NCBI GenBank assembly: GCA_009838765.1
Contig: VXQX01000004.1
Location: 1-42,536, forward strand
Reading direction: 5' to 3'
Source of the DNA: Gemmatimonadales bacterium
GTDB taxonomy: Bacteria > Gemmatimonadota > Gemmatimonadetes > Palauibacterales > Palauibacteraceae
DNA: 42,536 bases
Shown here: positions 2,896 through 17,058 of the stretch, piece after piece
Layout of the letters: every line of letters starts with the position of its first letter
Numbering within the stretch: position 1 is the first letter of the stretch
The notes under the pieces: generated by a model
What the model was told of the DNA's origin: nothing
Database searches by the model: none
What the model saw: the letters and a program-made list of their open reading frames with translations, nothing else
Translations under genes and position numbers: made by a program

Positions 2896-3465
2896 ATGAC
2901 CCGCCTGATGGCGGTGCTGCTCGCCCTTTGCGCCATCCTGCTCGGCCTGCTCGTCGCGGCGGTCGCCGCGGGGGCGGGCCGCGCCACGCCACTCCCCCAC
3001 CCCGAGTACGCTCCGATGCTCGTGGGGATCGATGCCGGGGAGCTCGGGGCGCCGGCGTTGGCCGCGTACGTCGCCGGCATCGCCATGCTCGGGACCATGT
3101 GGGTCGCGATGCTGATCGGGTTCCGCCACGGGCACTGGATCCGGCGGGCGGTCAACGCCTGGATGGTGGGCTACGTCCTCCTCTTCGTCGTCCTCATGTG
3201 GTCCTTCGACGCCTATGCCGCCGGCGACACGACGATTGTCCTCGGCTTCACGGCCCCGACTTCCCTGCTGGTGTTCGGGCTCACGCTCGCTCCGTGGGTC
3301 CCGCTGATCGCCATCACGTGGGCCTTCGAGGACGCCTACTTCGGCCTCGCGGAACAGACCCGCTTCGATGAGATCGTCGCGCAATCGAGAGAGAGGCGGG
3401 GGGCCTCCCGCGACGCCCGCGGCGCTCTCGGCGACTCCGGCCGCACCGGCGGCGGCGAGCGATAG
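2896..3465 (+). CDS. Small membrane protein upstream of the SSS symporter
   Basis: A 189-residue protein with four predicted membrane helices: near residues 4-26 ([20 protein letters not shown]), 55-77, 90-108 and 116-140. A hydrophilic, charged C-terminal tail ([20 protein letters not shown]) follows. Six bases separate it from the symporter start, so the two are almost certainly cotranscribed. Some SSS carriers are encoded with small membrane partners (for example the DUF485 and DUF997 families), but this protein is longer and I do not recognise it as either. Its function is not known; a role as an accessory subunit is inferred from position only. The ATG at 2896 immediately precedes the first helix. 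Confidence 0.7.
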
Positions 3466-14624: not shown

Positions 14625-14654
14625 TTGATTCTGAACGGGAATATGGTCTATATT
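14625..14654 (+). promoter_or_regulatory. vapBC promoter and candidate operator
   Basis: TTGATT (14625-14630) and TATATT (14649-14654) are spaced 18 nt. An inverted repeat AATAT-N5-ATATT (14640-14654) covers the -10 box, a likely binding site for the antitoxin, since VapB-type proteins usually autorepress. Confidence 0.55.
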
Positions 14655-14709
14655 GGTCCAGTTTCCTCGTCAGGGACTGAGTCGGTCATCGGATGGAAGG
14701 AGCAGGTCG

Positions 14710-15000
14710 GTGAACACGTCGGAGTTCGCACGCACATGGAGGATCGCCGAGGCGAAGGCGCGCCTGTCCGAGATCCTGCGTCTCGCGGACGAACAGGGAC
14801 CACAGCGTATCGGCGTTCGGAGGTCCTTCGTCGTCGTGTCCGAACGACTTTGGCGGGAGAAGGCTCCGATCCGGCAGCCTCTCGGCCGGTGGCTGATCGA
14901 CCACATGCCTCGCGGGCTGGATCTCGATATTCCCCGCGAGCGCGGGTCCGCGCGTCCGATTCCCTTCGTTTCGGATGACGTCGAGGACGACACCGAGTGA
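14710..15000 (+). CDS. vapB: Antitoxin (Phd/YefM-like) of a VapBC module
   Basis: Small DNA-binding antitoxin of 96 residues. The N-terminal RTWRIAEAKARLSEILRLADEQG is the characteristic dimerisation/DNA-binding segment of Phd/YefM antitoxins, followed by a strand-rich stretch with PQRIGVRRSFVVVSERLW. The C-terminus is acidic (SDDVEDDTE) and would wrap the toxin. GTG at 14710 is favoured because AAGGAG lies 7 nt upstream; an ATG at 14653 lies within the -10 box and is improbable. Its stop overlaps the toxin start (GTGA), giving coupled synthesis. The complex is expected to repress its own promoter. Confidence 0.85.
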   Translation: MNTSEFARTWRIAEAKARLSEILRLADEQGPQRIGVRRSFVVVSERLWREKAPIRQPLGRWLIDHMPRGLDLDIPRERGSARPIPFVSDDVEDDTE

Positions 15001-15416
15001 GCGGCGTGCTGCTGGACACCAACGTGATCTCGGAGTTGACGGAAGCGGTTCCCGCCCCACCCGTGGTGGCGTTCCTGTCCGCCCGAGACGACCTGTGGCT
15101 GTCTGCGCTTGTCCTGCACGAACTGGGGTTCGGCCTGCGCCTCCTGCCTCGCGGAAGCCGGCGAGACGCACTCAACGGCGTGCTGTCGGAGTTCATCCGG
15201 CGCTACGAGGATCGTGTTCTGCCCGTGGACGAGAGGGCCGCCGTATGGGCCGCCCGCTTTCGGGCTGAGGCTCGCGGGTGGGGTCGCCCGCTCGACCTGG
15301 GAGATGCGCTCATCGCGGGAACGGCCAAGGCGAACGACCTGTCCGTGGCTACGAGAAACGTGACGGATTTCGAAGGATTCGACCTGGTCGTCACGAACCC
15401 GTGGGAGTTCCCCTGA
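14997..15416 (+). CDS. vapC: PIN-domain ribonuclease toxin VapC
   Basis: PIN-domain toxin of 139 residues that would cleave RNA (tRNA or rRNA in studied members) when freed from its antitoxin. Acidic active-site residues are visible: Asp7 in LLDTNVISEL, Glu42 in LHELGFG, Asp103 in LDLGDALIAGTA, and Asp124 in ATRNVTDFEG. All are intact. The GTG start overlaps the antitoxin stop. Its 3' end overlaps the 3' end of hipA on the other strand by 26 nt, so both toxin messages are complementary there. Confidence 0.92.
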   Translation: MSGVLLDTNVISELTEAVPAPPVVAFLSARDDLWLSALVLHELGFGLRLLPRGSRRDALNGVLSEFIRRYEDRVLPVDERAAVWAARFRAEARGWGRPLDLGDALIAGTAKANDLSVATRNVTDFEGFDLVVTNPWEFP

Positions 15417-16686
15417 CCCGCTCCACCACCGGTGCGGTCGACACCATGCATTGCTCGGCCCGGCCCACGACCGTGTCACCGAATCGCGAAAGCGCCTCGA
15501 CATCCAACCCCGGCACGGTTAGCCCCCGCGCCACGTCCGGTGCTTCCCGGATCACCGACGCCCCGAGTTCGGCGACCCTTCTCCGGATCAGAGGGCGTCC
15601 CAGCTTCGCTTCCGCGGCAAAGGCTTTCCAGCGGTGGGAGTCCATCTCGGCGAGTTTGGCGCACCCCCCGATGGGCATGGCAAGCGCGCGCGACAGTTCC
15701 GGGTACTCGGTCGTCATGACGAGGTCGTAGAGCGGTGCGAGACGAGGTCCGGCGGCGTCATACAGGAGTGAGAAGTTCTTACCGTGCGCGTCGGCGTTGC
15801 CGATGATCAGGTTGAAGATCACGGCGTCGAGGAGCTTGAGAACGTCGACGGCGGGGCGGAGGGCAACCCGCCGGAGGAGCCCGAAGCCATCCTTCAGGCC
15901 CGGACCGCCCTCACCCGCGTATTTGACTTCGGGCGGTATCCGGAGTGCCTGGCAGAAATCCTCCTGATGGACGCGGCGGACTCGACCGTCCGGACCCGTC
16001 GACCGATCGTACCGGGCGACCAGCAGAAACGTTCGGTCCCCCACCCTTCGCGGCTCCGCGGATGCGACATCCAGGCCCACCGCCCGCGCGAGCCGCATCG
16101 CGAAGGCTTCGTTCTCCGTCGTGTGGGGGAAGTCGGGGATCGCCGGTTTCAGGATGTGGGTCGTGGGCTGCCCCGGCGCCGGAGGAGCGACCTGACCGTC
16201 GACCGTGACGACGGGCAGTTTCGACTGAGCGCCAGCGAGCGACAGGCGAAGGCCTGCCTCGCCGGCGAGCAGGGGGCGCCACGGCAGCCTGTCGAGCACC
16301 TCGATCAGTGCCGCATCGTCAAGCGGTTGAGGCGAATCGTCCGAGTCGAGGTCTGTCGGCGATTCTCCGGGCGGCAGGAGTTGGAGCGCTCCCGCCACAT
16401 CGCCGCCGAGACGATCGAGAAGGGCGAAGTCGTTAAGGGGGGAGACGCCCAGCGATCGTGCCACGCGGTCCCGTTGGATCTCTTCCGGCAGGAGGCCGGC
16501 GAAGAAGGGGCGGCATTCGCGGCGGGAGTACAGCTCGGCACGCTTGGGCAGCGATGCGGACAGTGCCGGGGCCCGGTCGTCCCGCAGCCAACCCTCCGCG
16601 TACACGAACTCCAAGGCGGCGGGCCCGGGCTGCCTCAAACGGCCGACGAGCCGCCCATCCCACCAGATGTCGAGAACGCGGTTCAT
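15391..16686 (-). CDS. hipA: HipA-family Ser/Thr kinase toxin
   Basis: HipA-like kinase of 431 residues. HipA toxins phosphorylate aminoacyl-tRNA synthetases (GltX in E. coli) and so stall growth. Conserved parts are the N-terminal subdomain (WWDGRLVGRLRQPG), LAGAQSKLPVV, the ATP lysine in THILKPAIPDFPHTTENEAF, the catalytic loop GNADAHGKNFSLLYD and the metal-binding LAPLYDLV. The length is close to E. coli HipA (440). ATG at 16686 overlaps the hipB stop by four bases. All kinase residues recognised are present, so it should be active. Its target cannot be told. Confidence 0.93.
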   Translation of the reverse strand: MNRVLDIWWDGRLVGRLRQPGPAALEFVYAEGWLRDDRAPALSASLPKRAELYSRRECRPFFAGLLPEEIQRDRVARSLGVSPLNDFALLDRLGGDVAGALQLLPPGESPTDLDSDDSPQPLDDAALIEVLDRLPWRPLLAGEAGLRLSLAGAQSKLPVVTVDGQVAPPAPGQPTTHILKPAIPDFPHTTENEAFAMRLARAVGLDVASAEPRRVGDRTFLLVARYDRSTGPDGRVRRVHQEDFCQALRIPPEVKYAGEGGPGLKDGFGLLRRVALRPAVDVLKLLDAVIFNLIIGNADAHGKNFSLLYDAAGPRLAPLYDLVMTTEYPELSRALAMPIGGCAKLAEMDSHRWKAFAAEAKLGRPLIRRRVAELGASVIREAPDVARGLTVPGLDVEALSRFGDTVVGRAEQCMVSTAPVVERVRGTPTGS

Positions 16687-16940
16687 GTATCGCGAACGCT
16701 GGCGGGTGCGGTCGCGTCGACTCTGGGTGGGGGAACGATCTCGACGGAACAGCCGAGCGCCGCCAGCACCTGAAGGACTTTTCCGATCTGCGCGGTCGGT
16801 TTTCCCGCTTCAAGGTCTACGATGAAGCGCAGGCCCACCCCCGCGACACCCGCAAGCTCATGCTGGCGGAGCCCCGCGTGCTTGCGCGCGGTGCGGACGA
16901 TTTCGCCGATATCGGAAGGTGTGACGGTTCGTTTTCTCAT
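16683..16940 (-). CDS. hipB: HipB-like XRE-family antitoxin and repressor
   Basis: Helix-turn-helix protein of 85 residues. The XRE fold runs from IGEIVRTARKHAGLRQHELA through GVGLRFIVDLEAGKP to IGKVLQVLAALGCSVEIVPPP, the standard end of HipB-type antitoxins. It would neutralise HipA and repress the operon through the palindromes upstream. The start codon touches the first palindrome by one base. The C-terminal tail is short. Confidence 0.92.
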   Translation of the reverse strand: MRKRTVTPSDIGEIVRTARKHAGLRQHELAGVAGVGLRFIVDLEAGKPTAQIGKVLQVLAALGCSVEIVPPPRVDATAPASVRDT

Positions 16941-16963
16941 GATATTCCCGATCGGGAATATCA
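16940..16963. promoter_or_regulatory. hipBA operator O1, 24-bp perfect palindrome
   Basis: Core TTCCCGATCGGGAA extended to 24 bp of perfect dyad symmetry (arms TGATATTCCCGA and its complement). It covers the -10 region and the first base of hipB. Centre is between 16951 and 16952. Confidence 0.8.
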
Positions 16964-16986
16964 GGTGTCTCCAAGCCGCTTGTCAA
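16957..16986 (-). promoter_or_regulatory. hipBA promoter
   Basis: On the minus strand a consensus TTGACA (plus-strand 16986-16981) is followed after 18 nt by GATATT (16962-16957), a 4-of-6 match to TATAAT. The -10 lies inside the first palindrome, so repressor binding there would block RNA polymerase. The leader would be only about 10 nt. Confidence 0.6.
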
Positions 16987-16994
16987 CCGTATTT

Positions 16995-17008
16995 TTCCCG
17001 ATCGGGAA
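16995..17008. promoter_or_regulatory. hipBA operator O2
   Basis: The same 14-bp palindrome TTCCCGATCGGGAA, centred exactly 50 bp from O1 and 9 nt upstream of the -35 box. Confidence 0.78.
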
Positions 17009-17044
17009 TATTATCGGGCAGGCGGAACTAACGCGAAGCAGAAT

Positions 17045-17058
17045 TTCCCGATCGGGAA
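17045..17058. promoter_or_regulatory. hipBA operator O3
   Basis: Third copy of TTCCCGATCGGGAA, centred exactly 50 bp from O2. The flanks are not conserved, so only the 14-bp core is under constraint. Confidence 0.75.

Follow-up and report, generated by a model that had tools for sequence, protein, structure and literature searches.

The three identical palindromes upstream of the hipBA genes in the stretch of 42,536 nucleotides analyzed here (the window) belong to a triple-site array whose internal spacing recurs in several bacterial phyla with near-random sequence between the sites, and it seems to be this distance that evolution preserves. We consider it very probable that the locus is a chromosomal HipBA toxin-antitoxin operon with its autoregulatory promoter-operator region in a gemmatimonadote of the Candidatus Palauibacter type, an explanation that includes binding of HipB to the palindromes, a block of transcription at the promoter-proximal site and contacts between HipA molecules. 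The host itself belongs to Candidatus Palauibacter or is very close to it, as genomes of its genus have contigs in common with the named assemblies P. denitrificans and P. rhopaloidicola. The first gene, hipB (16683..16940, minus strand), encodes an 85-aa XRE-type antitoxin and repressor, assigned by the family model TIGR03070 (Y4mF family) with 81.3 bits, above the curated cut-off of 71.65. Its end is overlapped by 4 nt by the start of hipA (15391..16686, minus strand), which encodes a 431-aa putative toxin of the HipA kinase family with Couple_hipA and HipA_C domain matches and a match to E. coli HipA at 3.8e-38. The gene order is that of HipBA systems, in which a gene for an HTH antitoxin immediately precedes, on the same strand, one for a HipA-family kinase. 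Aligned to E. coli HipA, the protein keeps the kinase motifs RLSLAGAQSK, NADAHGKNFS and LYDLV, which we take to be the Ser150-type loop, the catalytic DxxxxN and the DFG-like D.

The core TTCCCGATCGGGAA occurs three times upstream of hipBA, at 16945-16958 (O1), 16995-17008 (O2) and 17045-17058 (O3), in steps of exactly 50 bp. A motif search of the window thus returned the three identical 14-bp cores where a sequence-only reading of this DNA had placed them, centered on 16951.5, 17001.5 and 17051.5. The same holds for the two other elements described in that reading, a 24-bp perfect palindrome over the −10 region and the hipB start (TGATATTCCCGATCGGGAATATCA, 16940-16963) and a TTGACA between the first and second palindromes (minus strand, 16981-16986). 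The palindrome around O1 covers the first base (A) of the hipB ATG and is perfect at 24 bp and imperfect at 26 bp, and the right arm of the O1 core stops 4 bp short of the start codon. TTGACA is conserved in relatives as TnGAca and forms the −35 box, with O2 immediately upstream of it; a candidate −10 box, GATATT (minus strand, 16957-16962), matches TATAAT at 4/6 positions, stands at 18-bp spacing from the −35 box and overlaps O1. Judged by sequence, the two boxes plausibly form a promoter whose −10 element is covered by O1. The distal site O3 lies well outside the core promoter. A looser search of the window, with 3 mismatches allowed, gave four further matches, each with 3 mismatches, at a chance mean of 3.96. 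Across the host genome (3.60 Mb, 96 contigs), the exact core occurs only in the three copies upstream of hipB, and a reversed control pattern gave no match in the same 3.60 Mb; a HipB regulon sought in these 3.6 Mb likewise yielded no exact sites beyond the three.

These copies are almost certainly HipB autoregulatory operators, as the earlier reading had supposed, since predicted operators are present, conserved and specific to hipB and the sites accompany the gene across genomes. It could be argued that they instead act in termination or processing of the transcript of the upstream tRNA-Gly gene, bind a regulator other than HipB or belong to a dispersed repeat, given that the end of a tRNA-Gly(TCC) on the same strand is only 46 nt from O3 and that motif copies are dispersed away from hipB in some distant gemmatimonadote genomes. 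We regard this as highly improbable: the array accompanies hipB where no tRNA is nearby (L040, L041, L042, L065 and L072), which rules out the tRNA terminator, the motif is absent from the rest of the host genome, and other HipB families carry different palindromes at the same position. The equal spacing of three identical 14-bp cores in the host genome would also be expected had a 50-bp unit recently been duplicated in tandem, in which case the exact spacing would be a historical accident. This origin has practically no likelihood left, being refuted by the two 36-bp spacers, which agree at only 10/36 positions (near chance), and by a spacing that is kept over several phyla despite divergent spacers. 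As a separate observation, the distant gemmatimonadote genomes G136 (L130-L134), G073, G065 and G318 carry TTCCCGATCGGGAA-like palindromes in pairs or triplets, 41 bp apart on several contigs and with unrelated spacers. In G136, hipBA lies downstream of only one of the five pairs, and several of the pairs seem to sit at the 3′ ends of genes. The dispersed copies may be target sites of a HipB-like regulator or members of a repeat family.

Within the genus, hipB adjoins the tRNA-Gly(TCC) in nine congeners with a close hipB, and all six congeners compared over longer stretches share the same hipB neighborhood. Among five distinct upstream sequences, the operators contain no variable columns (0/42), as opposed to 32/72 in the spacers; one congener (L009) has spacings of 49 and 50 bp in place of 50 and 50. 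For a wider sample, we took the best 80 hipB homologues in the genome collection, from metagenome-assembled genomes and isolates of Gemmatimonadota, many Alphaproteobacteria, Gamma- and Betaproteobacteria, Deltaproteobacteria (Myxococcota), Chloroflexota and Planctomycetota. In nearly all of these, TTCCCGNNCGGGAA-like sites recur three times, at positions near −12, −61 and −111 relative to hipB, where the start codons of homologues are often mechanical choices and the spacings are independent of them. Clustering at 80% identity left 51 loci. When a partner site was sought at 40 to 60 bp, these gave 98 spacings with a mean of 49.22 and an SD of 0.65; with the distance unrestricted, 95 of 96 adjacent spacings were 47-50 bp. 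Random spacing or site number in relatives, which would have spoken against selection on the spacing as proposed in the sequence-only reading, was looked for in these loci and not seen. What that reading had expected of relatives, the same 50-bp spacing, stands as a near-constant distance with an optimum in the clade of 49 ± 1 rather than exactly 50 bp. Compared between loci, the spacers have a median pairwise identity of 34% (O2-O3) or 43% (O1-O2, which contains the promoter), and the O2-O3 step is nevertheless kept at 48-50 bp. Since distance is conserved across phyla where the spacer sequence is near random, the spacing appears to be under selection. Exceptions occur in one gemmatimonadote genus, with spacings of 30/51, 41 or 64/51/50. 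Another observation was that 19 loci in one cluster (L047-L083), labeled as different proteobacterial genera, are nearly identical upstream of hipB, which suggests that one hipBA module has recently spread horizontally.

The locus falls into a clade that we define by three TTCCCG(N2)CGGGAA sites spaced at 47-51 bp and by a HipB placed among the long-spacing members of the HipB tree. It is not a new kind of system, because hipBA promoters with three operators are known in Caulobacter: three operator sites have been described for C. crescentus hipBA1 and hipBA2 (PMC8545095), at intervals judged to agree with the higher-order HipA/HipB/promoter complexes of E. coli (PMC7029023). The likeness to the host lies in the three palindromic sites, the difference in the phylum. 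Caulobacteraceae loci in our sample (L051, L060, L071, L081 and L105) have the host’s motif at 48-50 bp spacing; extrapolating from these relatives, the published C. crescentus array would be the same as the host’s, and the TTCCCG(N2)CGGGAA clade with 49-50 bp spacing and triple operators probably also takes in Caulobacter hipBA1 and hipBA2. The namesake of the HipB family, y4mF-hipA of Sinorhizobium fredii NGR234, has TTCCCG(N2)CGGGAA sites at 49/49 bp as well, but is plasmid-borne (pNGR234a) and has a degenerate distal site (2 mismatches). Cooperative binding of HipB to four operators has been described in E. coli, where the protein bends its operator by 70 degrees and HipA serves as a corepressor (PMC3920265). 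The E. coli K-12 promoter resembles that of the host in having several palindromes of one type upstream of hipB and differs in site number, core and spacing: its four TATCCN8GGATA operators are centered at −125, −97, −58 and −30 from hipB, with spacings of 28/39/28 compared with 50/50 in the host, which bears out the earlier statement that they are of another sequence and unevenly spaced. Legionella pneumophila HipBST has three evenly spaced operators that are conserved over 28 species and bound by HipB in EMSA; they are 18 nt long with 53-bp gaps, or ~71 bp from center to center if the gaps run edge to edge (PMC10653801). This system is tripartite, its motif is unrelated to the host’s, and its O2 and O3 lose symmetry (PMC10653801).

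We then extended the comparison to further HipB families, using further TIGR03070 hits from Gemmatimonadota, E. coli K-12 and, as a second set, plasmids of other phyla; their upstream regions were searched for recurring palindromes without a preset motif and compared with shuffles. In this de novo search, in which a considerable share of HipB loci remained at p > 0.05 and the GC-rich repeats at L215 and L224 are probable false positives, the motifs differ between HipB families and the spacings recur. A 27-28 bp class is found, for example, at L183, L194, L202 and L204 and on plasmids of Pantoea, Rahnella, Citrobacter, Vibrio and Cronobacter; mixed arrays occur at L198 (27/49/27) and L206 (49/27/27/27). 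At L031, TTCCCTNNAGGGAA is spaced at 50/50, and at L027 and L032, GCACGATCGTGC is spaced at 60/61. A discordant class of 41-42 bp comprises Runella, Phocaeicola and G136. Two scans of a viral collection, in which more HipB families were sought, yielded no more than 2 and 10 loci. On the HipB tree, loci of the same spacing class group together, with 5 changes for the “long” class versus 22.7 after shuffling; spacing class follows the protein tree and is therefore inherited along with the HipB lineage.

The measured spacings have consequences for the rotational arrangement of the sites. The sequence-only reading took 50 bp as about five helical turns, placing all three dimers on one DNA face. 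This model is rejected by the data: the clade optimum is 49 bp rather than 52.5 bp, and other HipB families (27-28, 39 and 60-61 bp) share a nonzero phase. At 10.5 bp per turn, 50 bp corresponds to 4.76 turns and the O1-O3 distance to 9.52 turns; because 49 bp is 4.7 turns, neighboring dimers would occupy clearly different faces of simple B-DNA. The values of 27-28, 39 (E. coli), 49-50, 60-61 and ~71 bp (Legionella) form a series with steps of about one turn and a constant fractional turn of 0.5-0.7, which suggests, in place of the one-face argument, a fixed, nonzero rotational offset between neighboring dimers. The class values 27.3, 39, 49.3, 60.5 and 71, the last of which was entered after the series had already been seen, are fitted by 10.89n + 5.86. 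In a Monte Carlo comparison with five random classes, the concentration of this fit was reached in ~0.1% of draws (733 usable draws, with the classes picked post hoc), and with the 41-42 bp class added p was about 0.02; over 20 HipB families the phase concentration is high but dominated by the 27-bp class. It is tempting to speculate that HipB operator arrays, whatever their operator sequence, are spaced at ~10.9 × (n + 0.54) bp, with dimers on roughly opposite faces and with n heritable in the HipB (perhaps HipA) clade and setting the architecture of the HipA-holding complex, a tentative rule to which we would assign slightly less than an even chance. The series across families is a new, post hoc generalization with exceptions, and we offer the phase rule as a hypothesis; in the literature searched, the exact motif was not found in any paper and the cross-family series was found stated nowhere. 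The spacing classes of 27-28, 49-50 and 60-61 bp provide a ready panel for bridging models.

For the locus itself, we propose that a HipB dimer would bind each TTCCCGATCGGGAA, and that binding at O1, which covers the −10 region and the hipB start, would block RNA polymerase directly. O2, just upstream of the −35 box, and O3, 50 bp further, would together with O1 hold HipB2 or HipB2-HipA2 units next to one another, separated by a constant distance (49 ± 1 bp in the clade) and rotated relative to each other by a fixed ~0.5-0.7 turn. HipA units on adjacent operators may then touch, giving a higher-order repression complex in which HipA is also held inactive; a looped or stacked HipB-HipA complex, as envisaged in the earlier reading, is plausible in this setting. 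Alternatively, the operators could act singly, without contact between dimers, and the spacing could reflect promoter layout only, with O1 on the −10 box, O2 upstream of the −35 box and O3 behind. The conserved −35 and −10 elements flanked by O1 and O2 fit such a layout, but O3 is outside the core promoter and still keeps its 48-50 bp distance from O2 across a near-random spacer, the same few spacings appear in other HipB families at other places relative to hipB, and O3 tends to disappear together with hipA. We therefore consider independent action of the sites unlikely. With spacing kept to ~1 bp over several phyla and the spacer free to vary, the arrays offer evolutionary evidence that inter-complex distance and rotational phase matter. 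HipBA being a classic persistence module, contacts among operator-bound HipB2-HipA2 units would bear on the silencing of HipA.

Regarding hipA, 74 of the 75 relatives in which this gene is intact have O3, compared with three of the six that lack it (Fisher p = 0.0009 over all loci, or about 0.02 once relatedness among loci is roughly taken into account). Two congeners (L037/L012 and L038/L013) show a clean loss of hipA, corresponding to window positions ~15423 to 16716-16729; their orphan hipB genes (hipB match at 3001) retain O1 and O2 and lack O3. These two Palauibacter orphans probably represent one loss event, so that few independent losses lie behind the association. Conversely, Tistrella has hipA and lacks O3, and three orphans without hipA still have O3. 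The tendency of hipA and the distal operator to be lost together hints at bridging by HipA, and the pattern of O3 loss points weakly to an involvement of HipA at this locus. Elsewhere in the host genome, a second HipA-family gene (L115, G000:C94:138158-139683) has an HTH gene upstream and no TTCCCG sites. Next to hipBA, the 3′ end of hipA is overlapped by 26 bp by a convergent gene for a PIN-domain, VapC-like toxin (14997-15416, plus strand), which is preceded by a likely antitoxin gene (pair spanning 14653-15416), so that two toxin-antitoxin modules lie tail to tail.
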